Of a DNA stretch of 64,000 nucleotides, positions 34,088 through 43,259 are shown piece by piece. Source of the DNA: Corallococcus macrosporus (GTDB lineage Bacteria > Myxococcota > Myxococcia > Myxococcales > Myxococcaceae); assembly GCF_017302985.1 (NCBI RefSeq), contig NZ_JAFIMU010000007.1, positions 1,860,001 to 1,924,000 of the forward strand. Direction: 5' to 3'. A model generated the notes under the pieces. The model did no database searches. It saw nothing but the letters and a program-made list of their open reading frames with translations, and was not told the origin of the DNA. How positions within the stretch are numbered: position 1 is the first letter of the stretch; each line of letters begins with the position of its first letter. A program made the position numbers and the translations under genes.

Positions 34088-35257
34088 CTAGACGAACAGC
34101 GCCTTCGCGGTCTGCTGGAGGCGCTCCGTGCCCATGCGCATGAGCTGGCCCTTGAGGCCGGGCTGGCTCACGACGTGCCGCTCGAAGGCGGCGCGCTCCA
34201 GGCGCAGCACCACGCACGGCGTCTTCGTGCGCACCGTCGCGGACACGGGCTTGTCCAGCAGCAGCGAGATTTCGCCGAACACGTCGCCCTCGCGCAGCTC
34301 CGGCAGCAACACGATGCGGCCCGGCTGCTCCAGCGTCAGCTGCACCTGGCCGCGCAGGAGCAGGTAGAACGCGTCCCCCGGCTGCCCCTGCGTGAGGAGC
34401 ACCTGGCCCGCGGGGACGACGCGCAGGTCGAACTCGCGCGACATCGCCTGCTTCAGCGCGGGCGACAGGTTGGTGAACAGGGGGCTCGTGCGCAGCAGGT
34501 GGTCCACCAGCCGGCGCTGGTAGAAGGCCTGCACCGCCGCCTCCACCTCCGGGTGCGTGGCGCTGACGCGGGCGAGCGACTGGCGCTTGAACTCCAGCAG
34601 CACGGAGCGCTCACGCACCTCCACGCTGGCCAGCCTGGGCCCCTCCGACACCAGCGCCACCTCGCCGAAGAAGTCCCCCGGCCCCAGCGTGGCCACCACC
34701 TGGCGCGCGTTGCCCTCCACCCGCCGCGCCACCTCCGCGCGCCCCTCCACCAGCGCGAACATGGAGTCGCCCGGCTGCCCCTCCTCCACCACGCGCTGGC
34801 CCGGCCAGAAGGCGCGCACCTCCAGCGCCTCCACCAGCGCCACGAAGGCCTCGCGCCCCACGCCGGAGAGCACCGGCACGCCGGGGTCCTTGCCGTCGGA
34901 GACCCAGGCGAAGGTCGGCGCCAGCGCGCCGGGCGGCAGGGCGAAGCGCTCCGCCAGGGTGCGCACCGTCTGGGGCCTCGCGCCCCTGAGGCCCCGCGAC
35001 AGCACCGTGGCGGCCACCGCGCGCAGCAGGTTTCCCGCGCGGGCCCAGGCGAGCGCCGCGTCGTCGTAGGCGCGGGCGGCCTCCGGGGTGCGCTCCAGCC
35101 ACTCGAGCAGCTCCGCGACGCGCTGGTGCACCTCCGCGTCCTCCGGCTCCGCGCGCAGGGCGTCCTGGTAGCCGGCCAGCGCCGCTTCCAGCTTCCCTCC
35201 GGCGGCGAGCGTCGCCGCCTGGGCCTTCAGGGACCGCGCGTGTGGGGAGTCCGCCAT
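34088..35257 (-). CDS. TPR-like protein with two cyclic-nucleotide-binding domains
   Basis: 389 aa. The N-terminal ~100 residues are helical TPR-type repeats (AGGKLEAALAGYQDALRAEPEDAEVHQRVAELLEWLERTPEAARAYDDAALAWARAGNLLRAV). Two cNMP-binding domains follow (about 140-250 and 260-380): FWPGQRVVEEGQPGDSMFALVEGRAEV...GPGDFFGEVALVSEGPR, and VPAGQVLLTQGQPGDAFYLLLRGQVQL...REGDVFGEISLLLDKPVSATVRTKT. The second has the FGE...(A/S)ATxxxx arginine-type phosphate cassette region with partial conservation. No DNA-binding domain is present, so it is not a CRP transcription factor; it could be a cAMP- or cGMP-responsive scaffold. TACAGA lies seven bases before ATG 35257. A similar gene lies immediately upstream. 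Confidence 0.8.
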   Translation of the reverse strand: MADSPHARSLKAQAATLAAGGKLEAALAGYQDALRAEPEDAEVHQRVAELLEWLERTPEAARAYDDAALAWARAGNLLRAVAATVLSRGLRGARPQTVRTLAERFALPPGALAPTFAWVSDGKDPGVPVLSGVGREAFVALVEALEVRAFWPGQRVVEEGQPGDSMFALVEGRAEVARRVEGNARQVVATLGPGDFFGEVALVSEGPRLASVEVRERSVLLEFKRQSLARVSATHPEVEAAVQAFYQRRLVDHLLRTSPLFTNLSPALKQAMSREFDLRVVPAGQVLLTQGQPGDAFYLLLRGQVQLTLEQPGRIVLLPELREGDVFGEISLLLDKPVSATVRTKTPCVVLRLERAAFERHVVSQPGLKGQLMRMGTERLQQTAKALFV

Positions 35258-35339
35258 GCGGGCCTCTGTAACCCAGCCGCGTGGCGCACGCATCCGTTCG
35301 GAGGTCCCGGCGGGGTGTCCGGTGTCACCCCTGGGACCT

Positions 35340-36518
35340 TCAGCTGCTCAAATCCCGCACCCGCTCCGCCAGGCTCTGCGTGAAGAGGCGGTAGATGCGC
35401 AGGGCCGCGGCCTCGTGCGTCTCCAGGAAGTATTGGAAGTCCGTCCGGGTGACGCGCAGGGCCCGGACCACCGTGTGCGCGCGCACGTGCGCGGACACCG
35501 GGCCGTCGAGGATGAGCGAAATCTCTCCCAGGAACGCCCCCGGCCCCAGCATGTTGAGCTGGCGCGCGTCCGGGCCCGGGCCGGTGGACACGCTCACCAT
35601 GCCCTCCAGCAGCACCACCAGCCCCATCCCCTTGGCGCCCTTCTCCAGCACCGTCGTCCCCGCCGGCAGCAGCATGGGCCGGGCCAGGCGGTACAGGTCG
35701 CGCATGTCTTCCAAAGACAGACCATCGAAGATGGGAATGGCTTTCAGATAGCCATAGCCATCCACCACCGGCGGCGCCTTCTCCGCCGCGGCCGCGCCCT
35801 CCGGCGCCGAAGCGAGCCCCAGTTGCTGGAGCAGCCGCGCCTGCTCCGCCTGGAGCAGCAGCAGCCCCGCGCCCGTCGCGTGCTTGATGCCGTCCGCCAG
35901 GAGCACCAGCGCGCGCCACGTCGCGCCCTCCGCGTCCAGCAGCTCGCACATGCGCAGCACGGCTTCCGGCCGCTGCGGGTCGTCCGCGGGCACCGCGCGC
36001 AGCATCTCCAGCTCCGCGTGCGCGTTGCCCAGCACCCGGAACACCTGCGCGGCCTCCATGGGCCGGTGCATGCGGCCCAGCAGGTGCGCCAGCGACTCGC
36101 GCGCGCCCAGCGCCTGGTACAGCGACAGCGCCTGCTCCAGTGAGCCCGCGCGCTCGAAGGCCGCCGCCGCGCGGGCCTGCTCGCCCACCCTCAGCCACGC
36201 CTCCGCCGCCAGGAGCGGCGCTCCCGCCTGTTCGTACAGCGGCGCCGCACCTGCGTCGTCTCCGTCCGACTCCAGGAGCCGCGCCGCGCCCGCGAAGTCG
36301 CGCGCCTGCCGCAGCACCTCCACCAGCCGGGTGCGCGTCTCGGCGGGCACCGCCAGCGCCTCCTCCAGGACCCGCTCGCGATGCCCCGCCCCCATCGCCT
36401 CGTAGGCGCGCACCGCCTCCTCCACCGCGCCCTTGAGCACCCGCGCCCACACCCCGCGCGTGACGCTGGAGCCAGGGCCCACCGCCACGTCGCCCGCCTT
36501 CGAATCGTCTGGAGTCAC
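35340..36518 (-). CDS. Helical-repeat protein with a C-terminal cyclic-nucleotide-binding domain
   Basis: 392 aa. The N-terminal ~240 residues are repeated helical hairpins (ARAYEAMGAGHRERVLEEALAVP, AAFERAGSLEQALSLYQALGARE, AAQVFRVLGNAHAELEMLR), TPR or TPR-like. A linker follows, then one cNMP-binding domain (about 275-385) with LPAGTTVLEKGAKGMGLVVLLEGMVSV...GPGAFLGEISLILDGPVSAHVRAHT. The domain resembles the second domain of the 34088 product, so the pair probably arose by duplication. No DNA-binding domain is seen. The start is uncertain. GTG 36518 is preferred because the longer frame (to 36716) has unlike codon use and passes through the intergenic region. It is transcribed upstream of 34088 with an 82 bp gap. 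Confidence 0.7.
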   Translation of the reverse strand: MTPDDSKAGDVAVGPGSSVTRGVWARVLKGAVEEAVRAYEAMGAGHRERVLEEALAVPAETRTRLVEVLRQARDFAGAARLLESDGDDAGAAPLYEQAGAPLLAAEAWLRVGEQARAAAAFERAGSLEQALSLYQALGARESLAHLLGRMHRPMEAAQVFRVLGNAHAELEMLRAVPADDPQRPEAVLRMCELLDAEGATWRALVLLADGIKHATGAGLLLLQAEQARLLQQLGLASAPEGAAAAEKAPPVVDGYGYLKAIPIFDGLSLEDMRDLYRLARPMLLPAGTTVLEKGAKGMGLVVLLEGMVSVSTGPGPDARQLNMLGPGAFLGEISLILDGPVSAHVRAHTVVRALRVTRTDFQYFLETHEAAALRIYRLFTQSLAERVRDLSS

Positions 36519-36690
36519 GGCCTTGTCGTTCCCCCCGGCCCCACTGGCGCACAATGGCTGCCATGCCTGGGTCCGGGACCTGGATGGCGTAGCATCCTGA
36601 AACAGGGAAAGCCAGTCATCACCGGTAAGAGCGGCAGGCATTGGACGCGGGGTCCCGCGCGCGGATTGGGGGCGTGGAACCTGAGAGGTT

Positions 36691-36712
36691 GGCTTCCTGC
36701 TGAGCAGGAGCC
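36691..36712. promoter_or_regulatory. Inverted repeat in a 265 bp divergent intergenic region
   Basis: TCCTGCT-G-AGCAGGA, a perfect 7+7 dyad flanked by GGC/GCC. It sits between the divergent cNMP-binding-protein operon and the cytochrome operon. It could be an operator for either direction; there is no T-run. Nothing else of note is seen in the gap. Confidence 0.3.
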
Positions 36713-36783
36713 GCACGCGCCGCTATGCATGCGCGGGCCGGGCGTTATCGTGGAGACCCATGGGCCCTGCCCCGGAGCGCCGG

Positions 36784-38100
36784 ATGCGAATGCCACGAAT
36801 CACGGGGGGTTGGAGGGCGGCGGCGGTGGCCGGCCTGCTGGGGTCCAGTGGAGCCTGGGCGCACGCGGGCCTGCCGGAGACGTCCAACGTCACCCTGCGC
36901 AAGGGCCACCCCGAGGACGCCTTCGTGGGCGCCACGTTCGGCGCGGTCATCTCGCGCGACAGTGGGCGGACGTGGCGCTGGGTGTGTCCGGATGCCATGG
37001 GGTACGGCGGCTGGCGCCCGGAGTCCTTCGTCTGGCGCGAGTCGGGGGAGCTGCTGGCGGCCACGGGCAACGCGCTGCTGTCCTCGAAGGACGGCGCGTG
37101 TTCGTGGGCGTCGCACCCGGCGTTCAAGGACACGTGGGTGACGGGGCTCGCGGTGCACCCGTCGGATGACTCGGTGCTGTACGTGGCCACGGGCCGCTCC
37201 ACGTCGGCGACGAACGGGGTGTTCCGCTCGGAGGACGGCGGGGAGACGTGGCGGGCGCTGCCGCTCCAGCGCGCGGGCGTCCTCTTCTCCACCGTGCGCG
37301 TGTCCACGGCGGATCCGCGCACGCTCTACGTGTCCGCGTCGGACACGACGCGCATGTACCTGTTCCGCAGCGATGACGCGGGCGAGACGTGGGAGGAATT
37401 GCCCCAGGCGTTCCCGGACCTGGTGCGCCCGTTCGACTTCGTGGTGACGGCCACGGACCCCACCGACGCGCAGGGCGTCTGGGCGCGCGTGTCCGCGCAG
37501 GGCGCCACGCACATCCTCCACAGCACGGACGGCGGACGCACCTTCGCCATGCGCTCGGGCGCGGGCATCGACGACGTCTTCGTCAACATGGACGTCTCCG
37601 CGGACGGCGGCACCGCGTGGGTGTCCACGTACAACTCCTTCTTCCGCAGTCAGGCGGGCGGCGCCTTCGTCAAGCTGGGGCTGCCCACCGGCAACGCGTG
37701 CGTGACGCGCGTGGGGGACGTCCTCTACGGCTGCGGGTCGCCGTGGCTGCATGACTGGTCGCTGGCGCGCTCCAGCGACGAGGGCACCACCTGGGATCCG
37801 CTCTTCAGCCTGGAGCAGATTCAAGGCAGCCATCAGTGCCCCGTGGGCACGCCCGTGCGGGAGCTGTGCCCTTCGCGCTGGCCGCAAGTCGCGGAGACGA
37901 TTGGCGCGCCGCTCTATCCAGACGGCGTGCCGGACGCGGGCGTGCCGGATGCCGGCGTGCAGCCCCCCGTGGACGCGGGCACGCCCACGAACCCGAAGCC
38001 GTCCTCCGGCTGCGCCGCCGCGCCCGCGGGCACGCTGCTCCCCCTGTTCCTCCTTCCCCTGTTGCGTCGCGGCCGGCGGCGCGAGGACCCTTGCCCATGA
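36784..38100 (+). CDS. Secreted BNR/sortilin-like beta-propeller with MYXO-CTERM anchor
   Basis: 438 aa. Signal peptide AAAVAGLLGSSGAWAHA is followed by repeated Asp-box units: SRDSGRTWRW, SSKDGACSW, SEDGGETWRAL, SDDAGETWEEL, STDGGRTFAM, SSDEGTTWDPL, the S-x-D-x-G-x-T-W motif of BNR/sortilin propellers. A Pro/Asp-Ala-Gly repeat linker (PDAGVPDAGV...) leads to a terminal GC, hydrophobic helix and Arg-rich tail (SSGCAAAPAG...LLRRGRRR), a MYXO-CTERM signal. This sorting signal anchors proteins on the myxobacterial surface. Start choice is between 36784 and 36760; GGAG with a better spacing favours 36784. It is first gene of a four-gene operon. Confidence 0.75.
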   Translation: MRMPRITGGWRAAAVAGLLGSSGAWAHAGLPETSNVTLRKGHPEDAFVGATFGAVISRDSGRTWRWVCPDAMGYGGWRPESFVWRESGELLAATGNALLSSKDGACSWASHPAFKDTWVTGLAVHPSDDSVLYVATGRSTSATNGVFRSEDGGETWRALPLQRAGVLFSTVRVSTADPRTLYVSASDTTRMYLFRSDDAGETWEELPQAFPDLVRPFDFVVTATDPTDAQGVWARVSAQGATHILHSTDGGRTFAMRSGAGIDDVFVNMDVSADGGTAWVSTYNSFFRSQAGGAFVKLGLPTGNACVTRVGDVLYGCGSPWLHDWSLARSSDEGTTWDPLFSLEQIQGSHQCPVGTPVRELCPSRWPQVAETIGAPLYPDGVPDAGVPDAGVQPPVDAGTPTNPKPSSGCAAAPAGTLLPLFLLPLLRRGRRREDPCP

Positions 38101-38738
38101 AGATGAAGACGTCCCTGACGTGGAGCACCGCCGCCGTCGCGCTGCTCGCGCTGAGTGCCTGCAACGGCGACGACGAGACGGAAGCCACCGCGTGCGACGA
38201 GCCGCTGTACGCGGGCGGCGCCACGGACGAGGCGTGGCGCACGCTGGTGGATGCGCGCAACCAGCCCCAGGACAGCTCGCGCGCGGTGACGCTCGTGTCG
38301 CCCGGGTCCGGGCAGTCCTACTTCACGGACCAGGCCGCGCCGCTGTGGCAGTGGACGTCGCCGCTGCGCGCGTCGCTGGAGCGGCCCGGCCGCACGGTGC
38401 CTTCGTTGGAAAACCACCCGCGCGAGTCGAAGCGCTCGGTGCTCGCGTGGCTGGGTCAGCTCGTGCTGCCCACCGCGGAGGCCCACCTGCCGCCTTACAC
38501 GGGCGACCTGTACTGGGTGAAGGTCTTCGCGCAGGGGCGCGAGTGCCCCATCGCGCAGGTGTTGACGTCCGAGTTGCAGTGGCAACTGGATGACGGCTCC
38601 TGGCAGTCGGTGAAGGACGCGGCGGAGAAGACGCTGTCCGTGCAGGTGGAGAGCGCGTACCTGGTGCAGAACCGCATCACGGAAGGTCCCTACACGCTGG
38701 GGTCCCCCGTGCCCTTCACGATGGGGATGGCCAGGTGA
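38097..38738 (+). CDS. Lipoprotein of the cytochrome operon
   Basis: 213 aa, not a family I can name. It has a lipobox (ALLALSACNG) then an acidic linker. It contains SPGSGQSYFTDQAAPLWQWTSP, then HLPPYTGDLYWVKVFAQGRECPIAQVLTSELQWQLDDGSWQ, a beta-sandwich-like pattern with two further Cys. The ATG at 38097 overlaps the stop of the preceding gene (ATGA), and the stop overlaps the next start (GTGA), so translation is coupled. The position within the operon suggests a small periplasmic or outer-membrane partner of the propeller and cytochrome. It is not recognised from any known electron-transfer complex. Confidence 0.7.
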   Translation: MKMKTSLTWSTAAVALLALSACNGDDETEATACDEPLYAGGATDEAWRTLVDARNQPQDSSRAVTLVSPGSGQSYFTDQAAPLWQWTSPLRASLERPGRTVPSLENHPRESKRSVLAWLGQLVLPTAEAHLPPYTGDLYWVKVFAQGRECPIAQVLTSELQWQLDDGSWQSVKDAAEKTLSVQVESAYLVQNRITEGPYTLGSPVPFTMGMAR

Positions 38739-39976
38739 GGCGCGGGCTCTGGCTTTGCGCGCTGGCGCTGGCCGCGTGCAACGACGGCGCGCTCCGGGCG
38801 GAGGGCTCGCTGGAGGTGCCCGCGCTGACGTACGCGGATCCAAACCCGTGGACGCGCGGAGGCTCGGCGGTGCCGCCTCCGGGCCCTGCCGGGCGGCTGC
38901 TGGTGACCAACAGCCTGGATGACTCCGTGAGCCTGCTGGACATGGACGGGCTGGGGACGCCGGGCTGGAGCGAGCTGGCGCGCGTTCCTGTGGGGCTCAA
39001 CCCGGTGGAGCTGGAGGGGCCGCACCACACGGCGGTGTCTCCCGCCGGGGACTTCTATTACGTCGGCATCTCCAACTACGTGCCCGGCGGCGGATCCGGT
39101 CCGCACGGTGCGCATGGCACGGGCACGGCGGATGGCTACTGCCTGAAGCTGAGCGCGAAGGACAACCGGCTGGTGGCGTCCGCGCGCGTGGACCGCAACC
39201 CCGGGGACGTCATCGTCAGCGCGGATGGGCGCACGCTGTACCAGACGCACTTCGACCTCCTGCGCATCGCGGACGTGGCGCGGCAGGGCGGGCCGGAGGA
39301 GGACATGGTCGCGCGCATGGCCATCCTCGACGCGGAGACGATGGCGGTGAAGGCGCGGGTGAAGGTGTGCCCCGCGCCGCACGCGGTGCGCCTGTCCGCG
39401 GACGAGCGCACGGCGTACGTGGCCTGCTGGTCGGACGAGGTCGCGGTGGTGGACCTGGCGGCGGAGGGCATGCCGGTGACGCGCGTGAAGGTGGCATCGG
39501 GCGCGGGCACGGCGACGAACCCGCGCCACCAGCCGTACGCGCTGACGGTGTCACCCACGACGGGGGACGTGTGGGTCAGCTCGCTGGCGAGCAAGCAGGT
39601 GCAGGTGCTGGAGCCCGCGACGCGCACGATGAACCCGGCGCGCACGGTGTACCTGCGCGGCGCGCCCATGTTCGGCGCGTTCACGAAGGACGGGAGCACG
39701 CTGTACCTGCCCTATCAGCAGGAGGACGCGGTGGCGGTCATCGACGCGGCGACGTCCACGGTGCTGCGCACGGTGCCGCTGTCGCAGGCGGGCTGTCTCA
39801 ACGTGCACCAGTTCATGCTGACGCCGGACGAGCGCCACGGGCTGGCGGTCTGCGAGGGGGACCACATCGGACCGGGCACGCTGCACGTGGTGGACCTGGC
39901 GGAGGGCACGGTGGTGTCCACGGTGAAAATGGGCATCTTCCCGGACTCGGTGAGCCTGTTGCGGGGGCAGCCATGA
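38735..39976 (+). CDS. YncE-like beta-propeller lipoprotein
   Basis: 413 aa. It has a lipoprotein-like signal (LWLCALALAACNDG). Repeated seven-bladed units follow: GRLLVTNSLDDSVSLLDMDG, HHTAVSPAGDFYYVGISN, GDVIVSADGRTLYQTHFDLL, AYVACWSDEVAVVDLAAEG, LTVSPTTGDVWVSSLASKQVQVLEP, STLYLPYQQEDAVAVIDAATSTVLRTVPL, GLAVCEGDHIGPGTLHVVDLAEG. These are YVTN/YncE-like repeats. Several His residues in blade loops (GPHHTAV, HGAHGTG) might bind metal or haem, as in nitrous oxide reductase and cytochrome cd1 propellers; this is inference. GTG 38735 overlaps the preceding stop. It is coupled to the downstream cytochrome by ATGA. Confidence 0.8.
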   Translation: MRRGLWLCALALAACNDGALRAEGSLEVPALTYADPNPWTRGGSAVPPPGPAGRLLVTNSLDDSVSLLDMDGLGTPGWSELARVPVGLNPVELEGPHHTAVSPAGDFYYVGISNYVPGGGSGPHGAHGTGTADGYCLKLSAKDNRLVASARVDRNPGDVIVSADGRTLYQTHFDLLRIADVARQGGPEEDMVARMAILDAETMAVKARVKVCPAPHAVRLSADERTAYVACWSDEVAVVDLAAEGMPVTRVKVASGAGTATNPRHQPYALTVSPTTGDVWVSSLASKQVQVLEPATRTMNPARTVYLRGAPMFGAFTKDGSTLYLPYQQEDAVAVIDAATSTVLRTVPLSQAGCLNVHQFMLTPDERHGLAVCEGDHIGPGTLHVVDLAEGTVVSTVKMGIFPDSVSLLRGQP

Positions 39977-40692
39977 GGGGCGTGCGTGGAGGCGTGGCGG
40001 CGCTGCTCGTGGGCGTGCTGGCCGGGTGTGGCGGCGAGGACGAACCCCAGGCCGCGGCGGACTTCGGCGAGGCGCTGTTCCAGGACGCGCGGCTGTCGGA
40101 GAGCACGTTCAACCGCTTCTCGTGCGCGACGTGTCACGTGACGACGCCGGAGGCGCCGGCGGGGCGCATGGACTCCGGCCATTCGCTCTACAACGTGGCG
40201 GCGAGGCCGAGCTGGTGGGGCGGCTACGAGACGCACCTGCTGGACGCGGTGAACTTCTGCTACGTGAACTTCATGCGCGGGGTGACGAAGCTGGAGGCGG
40301 AGGATCCGCGCTCCCGCGCATTGTATGAGTACCTGTCGCGGATCAGCCCCGACGCGCAGGCGCCCGCGCTGCCGTTCACGGTGGTGAAGGACATCCAGGA
40401 CGTGCCCCGGGGCGACGCCGCGCGAGGCGAGGCGGTGTACCGGGCGGCGTGCCAGAACTGCCACGGCGCGACGCACACGGGCGAGGGACGGCTGACGGAG
40501 CTGGCGTCGCTGCTGCCGGAGGTGACGCAGGACTACGACCGGCTCTTCCCAGGCATCCCGCACGCGCAGGTCGTCATCGAGAAGGTGCGGCACGGCCAGT
40601 TCTTCGGCGTGGGAGGCAACATGCCGCCCTACGGCACGGAGGCCCTGTCCGACGCGGACCTGGGCGCGCTGCTCACGTACCTGGGTTTGTAG
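39973..40692 (+). CDS. Di-haem cytochrome c lipoprotein
   Basis: 239 aa. It has a lipobox (LLVGVLAGCGG). Two haem c sites are present: CATCH at residues 51-55 and CQNCH at 160-164. Distal Met ligands are plausible in GRMDSGH and GGNMPPYG. The C-terminal domain ends SDADLGALLTYLGL, typical of class I cytochromes. It is like the cytochrome-c-peroxidase/MauG domain order but shorter (239 vs ~330 aa), so it may be an electron carrier rather than a peroxidase. It is coupled by ATGA to the propeller gene upstream and is last gene of the operon. It sits on the periplasmic face of a membrane by lipid anchor. Confidence 0.85.
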   Translation: MRGVRGGVAALLVGVLAGCGGEDEPQAAADFGEALFQDARLSESTFNRFSCATCHVTTPEAPAGRMDSGHSLYNVAARPSWWGGYETHLLDAVNFCYVNFMRGVTKLEAEDPRSRALYEYLSRISPDAQAPALPFTVVKDIQDVPRGDAARGEAVYRAACQNCHGATHTGEGRLTELASLLPEVTQDYDRLFPGIPHAQVVIEKVRHGQFFGVGGNMPPYGTEALSDADLGALLTYLGL

Positions 40693-40796: not shown

Positions 40797-43259
40797 ATGG
40801 CTTCGTCGGGTTCACAGGAGCGGGGCCCCTCCGCGGAGGGGCGCACGTCCATGAGGGGCAGGGCTCCCTCGTCCCTGGCGGAGTTGCTGGACCTGGACCG
40901 CGAGGCGCTCGTGGAGGAGTGGGCCGCACGGGTGGCTCCCCTCTTCACCTCCTTGCGCCTGTCACACGAGCAGATCGTCGACGCCCTGCCCGCCTTTCTC
41001 GATGATCTGCACGCCGCGCTCGTGCACGCGGAGGAGGAGCCTGACGGGGCCCCGCTCCGGCACAGCGAGGCCGCCGGAGCCCATGGCCGTCAGCGCCTGC
41101 GCCTGGGCGCCGACGTGACCCTGCTCACACGCGAATACGCCCTCCTGCGCGACTGCATCCTCACGCGGGCCGAGCGCCTGGACCTGGACGTGCCGCTGTC
41201 ACACGTGCGCGTGCTCTGCGCCTCCATCGACGCCGCGCTCGCCCAGGCCGTCATCCCCTTCGCGTGCGACAGCGCCGAGCGCCACCACGCGGAGGCCGAG
41301 GAGCGCGAGCGCTTCTTCCAGCTGTCCCCGGACATGTTCTGCATCGCGGGCATGGACGGGTACTTCAAGCGCGTGAACACGTACTTCGTCCACGTGCTCG
41401 GGTGGACCGAGGCGGAGCTCTACCAGCACCCGTTCATGGAGCTGGTCCACCCCGATGACCAGGAGTCCACCCGCGCGGAGATGCGCAAGCTGTCCCATGG
41501 CATCCCCACCCTGCGCTTCGAGAACCGCTTCCGCGCGCGCGATGGCCGTTACCGTTGGCTCGCGTGGGCGTCGCGCCCCGTGCCCGAGCTGGGCCTCATC
41601 TACGCCGCCGCGCGCGACATCTCCGAACAGAAGGCCGTGGCCCAGGAGCGCGAGCGCCTGCTGGAGGCCGTGCGCGAGAGCGAGGCCCGCTTCCGCAACA
41701 TGGCGGACCACGCCCCCGTCATGCTGTGGGTGACGGACATGCTGGGCGGCACGACCTACATGAACCGGGGCTGGTATGCCTTCACCGGCCAGACGGAGGC
41801 CACGGGGCTGGGCTTCGGCTGGCTCGACGCCCTCCACCCCGACGACGTGGAGCGCACGCGGCGGACCTTCATGGACTCGAGCCAGGACCGGCGGCCCTTC
41901 CGGCTGGACTACCGGCTGCGCGGCACGGACGGCCAGTACCGCTGGACCGTGGACACCGGCTCGCCCCGCTTCGACACGGAGGGGCAGTTTCTGGGCTACA
42001 TCGGCAGCGTCATCGACATCAGCGACCGCAAGCAGGCGGAGCTGGAGCGCGAGGCCCTGCTGTCCCGCGAGAGCGCCGCGCGCAAGGAGGCGGAGGAGGC
42101 CAACCAGCTCAAGGACGAGTTCCTCGCCACCGTCAGCCATGAGCTGCGCACGCCGCTCACGGCCATCCTTGGCTGGGTGCAGCTCCTGCGCACCGGCCAC
42201 CTGCCCGAGTCCCGCCGCGAGCGCGCGCTGGAGACCATGGAGCGCAACGCGCGCGCGCAGGGGCAGCTCATCGAGGACCTGCTCGACGTCAGCCGCATCG
42301 TGTCCGGCAAGCTCAAGCTGGACGTGGAGCCGGTGGACCTGTCCGCCGTGGTGCAGCAGTCGCTGGAGTCCGTGCGGCCCGCGGCGGACGCGCGCGGAAT
42401 CCAGGTGCTGGCCACGGTGGACACCTCCAGCAGCGTGATGGGCGATACGCAACGGCTCCAGCAGGTGGTGTGGAACCTGCTGTCCAACGCGGTGAAGTTC
42501 ACGCCCCGCGGAGGCCGCGTGCGGCTGGTGGTGGCGCGGCGGGACTCCTCCGTGGAGCTCACCGTGGAGGACACCGGCCAGGGCATCCCCTCGGCCTTCC
42601 TCCCCCACGTCTTCGAGCGCTTCCGCCAGGCCGACAGTGGCACCACGCGCAAGACGGGCGGGCTGGGGCTGGGGTTGTCCATCGTGCGGCACATCGTGGA
42701 GATGCACGGCGGCACCGTCTCCGCCGCCAGCGAGGGCGAGGGCCGGGGCGCCACCTTCACCGTGCGCCTGCCCCTGTCCGTCACGCAGCGGCGCGACCCC
42801 GCCATGCCCCCGTCGCCCCGGCCTCCGGCGCTCGGCCGGGTGTCCACGCCTCCGCCGGAGCTGGGCGGGGTGCGGGTGCTGGTGGTGGACGACGAGGAGG
42901 ACGCGCGCGAGCTGTTGCGCACGTTGCTGGAGGACAGCGGAGCCGAAGTGGCCACCGCGGGCTCCGCGGCGGAGGGGCTCCAGGTGCTCCAGGCGGAGCA
43001 CCCGGACGTGCTCGTCTCCGACATCGGCATGCCGGGCACGGATGGGTATGGCTTCATCGCGCAGGTGCGCGCGCTGTCCGACGAACAGGGAGGCCGCACC
43101 CCGGCGGTGGCCATCACGGCCTACGCCCGCTCCGAGGACCGCACCCGGGTCCTGCGCGCCGGCTTCCAGAGCCACGTGCCCAAGCCCGTGGAGCCCGGGG
43201 AGCTGCTCGCCGTGCTGGCCTCGCTCGCGGGCCGCTACCAGCCGCTGCCCACGGCGTGA
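40797..43259 (+). CDS. Hybrid sensor histidine kinase (RsbRD_N-like, PAS-PAS, HisKA, HATPase, REC)
   Basis: 820 aa. The N-terminal ~150 residues are helical and resemble the RsbRD N-terminal (non-haem globin-like) sensor: LVEEWAARVAPLFTSLRL...LLTREYALLRDCILTRAERL. Two PAS/PAC units follow (about 185-300 and 310-425, each ending in DISEQK/DISDRK). The DHp phospho-acceptor is His448 (TVSHELRTPLTAIL). The N-box NLLSNAVKFT, G1 EDTGQGIP and G2 GLGLGLSIV are intact. A C-terminal receiver has VLVVDDEED, Asp742 (LVSDIGMPG) and Lys in VPKPVEP. It is soluble with no TM. Phosphate would move to its own receiver and then to an HPt or another regulator elsewhere. The start is ATG 40797. Confidence 0.92.
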   Translation: MASSGSQERGPSAEGRTSMRGRAPSSLAELLDLDREALVEEWAARVAPLFTSLRLSHEQIVDALPAFLDDLHAALVHAEEEPDGAPLRHSEAAGAHGRQRLRLGADVTLLTREYALLRDCILTRAERLDLDVPLSHVRVLCASIDAALAQAVIPFACDSAERHHAEAEERERFFQLSPDMFCIAGMDGYFKRVNTYFVHVLGWTEAELYQHPFMELVHPDDQESTRAEMRKLSHGIPTLRFENRFRARDGRYRWLAWASRPVPELGLIYAAARDISEQKAVAQERERLLEAVRESEARFRNMADHAPVMLWVTDMLGGTTYMNRGWYAFTGQTEATGLGFGWLDALHPDDVERTRRTFMDSSQDRRPFRLDYRLRGTDGQYRWTVDTGSPRFDTEGQFLGYIGSVIDISDRKQAELEREALLSRESAARKEAEEANQLKDEFLATVSHELRTPLTAILGWVQLLRTGHLPESRRERALETMERNARAQGQLIEDLLDVSRIVSGKLKLDVEPVDLSAVVQQSLESVRPAADARGIQVLATVDTSSSVMGDTQRLQQVVWNLLSNAVKFTPRGGRVRLVVARRDSSVELTVEDTGQGIPSAFLPHVFERFRQADSGTTRKTGGLGLGLSIVRHIVEMHGGTVSAASEGEGRGATFTVRLPLSVTQRRDPAMPPSPRPPALGRVSTPPPELGGVRVLVVDDEEDARELLRTLLEDSGAEVATAGSAAEGLQVLQAEHPDVLVSDIGMPGTDGYGFIAQVRALSDEQGGRTPAVAITAYARSEDRTRVLRAGFQSHVPKPVEPGELLAVLASLAGRYQPLPTA

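Follow-up and report, generated by a model that had tools for sequence, protein, structure and literature searches.

A four-gene operon of Corallococcus macrosporus encodes a beta-propeller lipoprotein, g3, in which seven histidines are invariant across 37 orthologues and, according to the structural model of the protein, all lie on one propeller face; this arrangement is new here. The operon occupies positions 36784–40692 on the + strand of the window, by which we mean the whole stretch of 64,000 nucleotides analysed (contig NZ_JAFIMU010000007.1, in a genome of 9.8 Mb), and consists of the following genes:

36784..38100, + strand: g1, exported BNR/Asp-box beta-propeller with a C-terminal MYXO-CTERM surface-sorting tag, 438 aa (Pfam, orthologue conservation, open reading frame)
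38097..38738, + strand: g2, lipoprotein of no known family, predicted immunoglobulin (Ig)/fibronectin-III (FnIII)-like sandwich, 213 aa (model, fold comparison, lipobox Cys22)
38735..39976, + strand: g3, seven-bladed beta-propeller lipoprotein with a GTG start, 413 aa (model, fold comparison, lipobox Cys15)
39973..40692, + strand: g4, TsdA/SoxA-like di-haem c lipoprotein, 239 aa (two CxxCH motifs, profile matches, lipobox Cys19)

The four-gene set is more than a chance association, and our literature searches found no description of it. We propose that it specifies an envelope metallo-propeller oxidoreductase (g3) together with the cytochrome (g4) that serves it in electron exchange, a reading to which we give slightly less than an even chance. 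The coordinates, the strand and the overlaps of the genes had been given by an initial annotation made from the sequence, and an open reading frame check found them exact, with four bases shared by each pair of neighbours (ATGA in g1/g2, GTGA in g2/g3, ATGA in g3/g4). The G+C content at third codon positions is 0.93–0.94 in each gene, which is what real genes of a GC-rich genome would show. The lipid anchoring that had been attributed to three of the products is borne out by their lipobox cysteine, which follows a hydrophobic signal and is invariant in g2 (Cys22, 33 orthologues), g3 (Cys15, 37 orthologues) and g4 (Cys19, 32 orthologues).

Seven invariant histidines on one face of the g3 propeller

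The AlphaFold2 model of g3 (mean predicted local distance difference test score, pLDDT, 87) is a seven-bladed propeller closed by its C-terminal strand. This agrees with the earlier description of g3 as a propeller lipoprotein, but the label "YncE-like" that came with it is too generic, as by sequence g3 is equally close to hydrazine synthase beta and to other YVTN propellers. The seven histidines (97, 98, 124, 127, 172, 216 and 358) are retained in orthologues down to 30% identity, and are placed as follows:

39023..39028, + strand: His97-His98, invariant in 37/37, at the start of the first inner strand in the sequence (alignment, strand position)
39104..39115, + strand: His124-x-x-His127 (GPHGxHG), invariant in 37/37, in the B-C loop of the blade that holds His97-His98 (alignment)
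39248..39250, + strand: His172, invariant, at the end of a B strand (alignment, model, strand topology)
39380..39382, + strand: His216, invariant, at the start of an inner strand (alignment, model, strand topology)
39806..39808, + strand: His358, invariant, at the start of an inner strand, aligned with a histidine of thiocyanate dehydrogenase (alignment, model, profile match)

Faces were assigned from the order of the strands, the inner-strand starts and the D-A and B-C loops belonging to one face, and the A-B and C-D loops to the other. By the strand topology of the model, 28 of the 29 invariant residues of g3 fall on a single face, among them all seven histidines as well as Asp158, Asp174 and Asp404 (Fisher p 1.6e-7, a guide value, because homologous sequences do not count as independent; that the placement is one-sided is plain without it). 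A metal site or an active site on this conserved face is likely.

Among many other propellers, structural comparison of g3 returned nitrous-oxide reductases (VIA Z 33–35) and thiocyanate dehydrogenase (TcDH; Z 31). A profile of the last g3 blades matched thiocyanate dehydrogenase (E 0.006), with His358 on a histidine and Asp404 on an aspartate. We estimate from the offset between chain and entry numbering that this histidine is residue 446–447; according to their titles, PDB entries 8yu5 and 8yu6 carry a change at His447. Weaker matches were scattered among the 37 members of the g3 family: the zinc chaperone AztD in 3 of them, and the beta-subunit model of amine dehydrogenase in 16. The homology of g3 to a copper enzyme is not proven.

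A di-haem cytochrome with a predicted His/Cys-ligated haem

The protein encoded by g4 has exactly two CxxCH motifs, as expected from its first description as a di-haem protein. Their positions, and that of a further invariant cysteine, are:

40123..40137, + strand: haem 1 motif CATCH, residues 51–55, with Cys51, Cys54 and His55 invariant (32 orthologues)
40258..40260, + strand: Cys96, invariant, predicted distal ligand of haem 1 (positions in the TsdA unit and the SoxA VNAC motif)
40450..40464, + strand: haem 2 motif CQNCH, residues 160–164, with Cys160, Cys163 and His164 invariant (32 orthologues)

Pfam assigns the second haem domain to the ordinary cytochromes c. The first one is di-haem-peroxidase-like at its start and then reaches the invariant cysteine, which mostly stands in the context V/I-N-x-C. 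Over the whole two-haem unit of g4, the best end-to-end match was TsdA (1–123 to 45–170, E 9e-6), and in a weak alignment with SoxA (E 0.026) the invariant cysteine of g4 fell exactly on VNAC. TsdA itself uses His53 and Cys96 as ligands of haem 1, and His164 with Lys208 or Met209 as ligands of haem 2 (PMC6879331). As the position of g4 Cys96 matches both the TsdA unit and the SoxA VNAC motif, His/Cys ligation of haem 1 is the best prediction. Towards haem 2, the invariant residues of g4 are Lys204, Arg206, His207 and Met217.

Conservation of the operon in the Myxococcota

A search of 96 Myxococcaceae genomes recovered g3 and g2 in an identical set of 69, and g4 in 68 of these, the single exception (G080) being a genome in which g3 itself is cut by the end of a contig. 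The four genomes with two full copies of g3 (G016, G027, G029 and G042) also carry two copies of g4. The closest named relatives of g3 are from Corallococcus species (87–94% identity), and Myxococcus xanthus has the same operon (locus L110). When the whole phylum was searched, the g3 profile matched 81 of 195 genomes, some of the matches being divergent homologues. A scan of one genome per species (84,980 species), made with a closer g3 alignment that may miss distant relatives outside the phylum, gave 48 relatives, nearly all named Myxococcota or deltaproteobacteria; the few under other taxon labels we take to be wrongly labelled. Records titled Comamonas sp. (L127, BNCN01000005.1) and metagenome-assembled genomes titled Proteobacteria or Betaproteobacteria (L126, L136) hold the myxobacterial operon, and look mislabelled or contaminated.

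In 33 loci with enough flanking sequence, the neighbourhood of g3 contained g4 in all cases (33/33), g2 in 30 cases and g1 in 26 cases. Most often the genes ran g1-g2-g3-g4 (22 loci), and elsewhere we observed g3-g4-g1, g3-g4-g2, g1-g3-g2-g4, or g2 and g4 inverted. That the genes stay together while their order changes speaks for a common function and against a neighbourhood kept by descent. The gene order is not peculiar to this genome, a point on which the initial annotation had made its reading of the set depend; instead, the module is conserved across the Myxococcota, with matching copy numbers of g3 and g4. The clustered genes that flank the four were kept in closer relatives only, and we did not count them as parts of the operon. 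In one locus (L043, 4327–6239), from a single genus (g6), about 1.9 kb separate g2 and g3, which normally abut.

The fibronectin-like lipoprotein g2 and the surface-sorted propeller g1

No Pfam or NCBIfam family matched g2 at E up to 1, and no sequence in the PDB matched it. Its model (pLDDT 79) contains an Ig/FnIII-like sandwich from about residue 61, and the fold matches (Z ~8) were ordinary FnIII and cytokine-receptor domains, which give no clue to function. Six residues are invariant in 33 orthologues: Asp44, Glu45, His130, Trp169, Gly197 and Pro198. The histidine among them is located as follows:

38484..38486, + strand: His130 of g2, in the motif AHLPPxTG (33/33 orthologues)

Our guess is that g2 is a scaffold or an accessory-ligand protein.

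In g1, the Pfam models BNR, BNR_2 and Sortilin-Vps10 scored above their cut-offs (PF02012, 40.5 vs. 27; PF13088, 36.6 vs. 31.4), and the export signal ends in AxA. The tag that defines its C-terminus is the following:

38002..38088, + strand: MYXO-CTERM of g1, with SSGC motif (Cys410), hydrophobic stretch and Arg-rich tail (sequence, orthologues, PMC11980579)

Together with the presence of Cys410 in 33 of 35 orthologues, these matches sustain the view of g1 as a BNR propeller anchored by MYXO-CTERM, a sequence whose definition and surface-sorting function have been described (PMC11980579). The NCBIfam model for the tag gave no match in the NCBIfam search of g1, though the C-terminal signature is there. 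Among the four proteins, only g1 has such a tag. The mature N-terminus of g1 looked like His-x-G, as if it could form a histidine brace, but this position is His, Asn or Asp among orthologues, and we rejected the idea.

Likeness to known systems

The nearest functional analogue of the proposed enzyme is thiocyanate dehydrogenase. This seven-bladed propeller carries three copper ions in its tunnel and hands electrons to a cytochrome c that is purified along with it (PMC9456337). The pair that it forms with cytochrome c552 in Thioalkalivibrio resembles g3 and g4 in the combination of a seven-bladed propeller with a cytochrome c acceptor, in the fold, and in the histidine that is aligned with g3 His358. 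In contrast to g3, a lipoprotein with a di-haem partner, TcDH is periplasmic and its cytochrome has a single haem, and over the whole protein the sequence similarity is borderline. The CuZ centre of nitrous-oxide reductase (NosZ) is held by seven histidines, of which two follow each other directly in blade II; the inner strand of the neighbouring blade I comes from the C-terminus (PMC11573801). Like NosZ, including the clade III L-NosZ, g3 has the propeller fold and seven conserved histidines, with two consecutive ones on an inner strand, and it is also closed by a C-terminal strand with the consecutive pair on the next blade. The other five histidines of g3 are, however, placed elsewhere, and g3 ends with the propeller, without the CuA cupredoxin domain; no cupredoxin match was found in any of the four proteins. 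The model of the lactonase-type clade III L-NosZ (NF052460) gave g3 24.4 bits against a cut-off of 700.

For g4, the likeness to TsdA and SoxA consists in the spacing of the two haems and in the invariant cysteine at the ligand position of haem 1, but g4 is lipid-anchored and encoded with a propeller. The curated models scored it at 14.1 bits each (cut-offs: TIGR04484, 110 bits; PF21342, 27 bits). In quinohaemoprotein amine dehydrogenase (QHNDH), a di-haem cytochrome occurs together with Ig-like domains and a YVTN propeller. These are the same types of parts as in g4, g2 and g3, and the weak amine dehydrogenase matches among g3 members mentioned above are to its beta model; on the other hand, no small gamma gene for the quinone cofactor fits in the overlapping operon, and the beta model (TIGR03907) reached 18.8 bits of the required 223.2. 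Hydrazine synthase beta and gamma likewise join a propeller with a di-haem protein resembling cytochrome c peroxidase (CCP), and matched g3 (E 5e-13) and g4 (E 0.0014), respectively, but other propellers and peroxidases matched g3 and g4 equally well, and the beta model (NF052340) gave g3 48.8 bits against 560.

The metal-binding pair MbnP/MbnH, in which an extracytoplasmic protein adjoins a di-haem protein, is known from myxobacteria (one model is named after MXAN_0977). The MbnH model (TIGR04039) scored g4 at 16.7 bits (cut-off 362.85), and no MbnP-type match was found in the 33 orthologues of g2. Elsewhere in the same genome (G000:C2:998695-999687), there is a true MbnH-family di-haem enzyme, with 505 bits, over the cut-off. 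The copper operon curA of M. xanthus (MXAN_3413-3421) also encodes envelope lipoproteins with a pyrroloquinoline quinone-type propeller and a PF13442 cytochrome (PMC3707914). It consists, however, of nine different genes, including CuoA, CopA and CorSR, with no BNR gene in its table (PMC3707914). What the operon may work like has therefore to be kept apart from what it is: none of the models of L-NosZ, SoxA, SoxA/TsdA, MbnH, amine dehydrogenase and hydrazine synthase reached its curated cut-off.

Genes adjoining the operon

Divergent from the operon, two adjoining genes on the − strand (34088–36716 of the window) encode cyclic-nucleotide-binding domains, one of them with TPR matches, and similar genes are located upstream of the operon in many Corallococcus and Myxococcus loci. 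Directly downstream of g4, on the + strand (~40800–43259), lies a gene for a PAS/histidine-kinase/receiver-like protein, as judged from its translation, and its relatives (cluster c7) follow the operon in Corallococcus loci.

Proposed function and alternatives

In the oxidoreductase that we propose, the lipid-anchored g3 would bind metal where its central tunnel opens, most likely as a multinuclear copper centre, by means of the seven histidines, with Asp158, Asp174 and Asp404 nearby, and would oxidise or reduce a small substrate there. The lipid-anchored g4, a TsdA/SoxA-type di-haem cytochrome whose haem 1 has His/Cys ligation, would accept or supply the electrons and connect g3 with the respiratory chain. 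The lipoprotein g2 might serve as a scaffold for g3 and g4, or contribute His130 as one extra ligand, and g1 might dock the module at the cell surface or aid the binding of the substrate. Beyond the predicted folds, the predicted clustering on one face and the predicted His/Cys ligation, we infer the identity of the metal, the substrate, the direction of electron flow, the formation of a complex and the side of the membrane. The initial annotation had suggested electron transfer or metal handling by one complex at the surface. The former part gains support from the histidine face of g3 and from the TsdA/SoxA-like, probably Cys-ligated haem of g4; that g1–g4 make one physical complex, all facing outside, we still infer, and the three lipoproteins might instead be located on the periplasmic side.

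Several observations weigh against this proposal. The loop with His124 and His127 is of low confidence in the g3 model. Lactonases, an archaeal YVTN surface-layer propeller and, with Foldseek, NirF match the g3 fold equally well or better, and the sequence match to NosZ is borderline and out of register, with the His-His pairs not aligned. As CuA is also missing and no NosL (PF05573) match was found in the genome, we rejected the membership of g3 in NosZ. Moreover, the second cassettes of three Corallococcus genomes (L047, L048 and L049 in G016, G027 and G029) are g1-g3-g4, without g2, and a diverged g3 subfamily of other Myxococcota (L092–L095, family f6) shows His-Glu where the others have His-His, and is without the HxxH loop; its neighbour in L092 and L095 is a different cytochrome, with only a weak match to g4. 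The g3 site may thus occur in more than one form.

Three other functions have to be considered. The module could acquire, store or traffic copper or zinc without turnover of a substrate, with metal bound by g3 and perhaps g2, and with g4 setting its redox state or modifying a partner, as MbnH does with MbnP. We consider this unlikely, though the histidine and aspartate face of g3, the invariant histidine of g2, the AztD matches and a CCP_MauG match at the start of g4 in 32 of 32 members would all suit it, because g4 is far below the MbnH cut-off, does not have the length of MauG or MbnH and departs from them after haem 1, no MbnP family matches g2, and no transporter or known copper gene was found conserved among the neighbours, which were clustered rather than annotated. 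It is more improbable still that g3 carries a tetrapyrrole or an organic cofactor instead of copper, as NirF, NirN and NirS carry haem d1, and that the operon handles or uses this cofactor. NirF is among the best matches of g3 in both sequence and fold, the haem-d1 proteins NirN and NirS also match it, and the Cytochrom_D1 model of such propellers (PF02239) stopped just below its cut-off (23.7 vs. 25.5 bits). Seven invariant histidines, however, appear to exceed the need of one haem, and no genes of haem-d1 biosynthesis were seen beside the module in the examined loci, whose neighbours were clustered, not annotated.

Many propellers are pure scaffolds, and the operon might specify an envelope assembly for structure or adhesion, with a cytochrome that wires electrons and propellers that lack an active centre. 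The Ig/FnIII-like binding fold of g2 would fit such a role, as would the MYXO-CTERM that marks g1 as a surface protein (PMC11980579). We give it little credence, as the one-sided placement of 28 of the 29 invariant residues of g3, with seven histidines and several aspartates, is the signature of an active site and not that of a scaffold.

The metallo-propeller oxidoreductase could be extended to the view that g3 is the first member of a new class of propeller enzymes with multinuclear copper. Such an enzyme would resemble NosZ and thiocyanate dehydrogenase but be attached to the myxobacterial envelope by a lipid anchor, and its partners, a di-haem cytochrome with His/Cys ligation and a propeller sorted to the surface, would work with it on a substrate new to enzymes of this kind; this extended view we regard as rather doubtful. 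There are few multicopper propeller enzymes, and those known catalyse uncommon reactions, the reduction of N2O and the oxidation of thiocyanate. If the proposal is true, common soil predators would possess a further type of multicopper propeller, paired with a probable Cys-ligated haem protein, and a new reaction would be added to those of the myxobacterial envelope.

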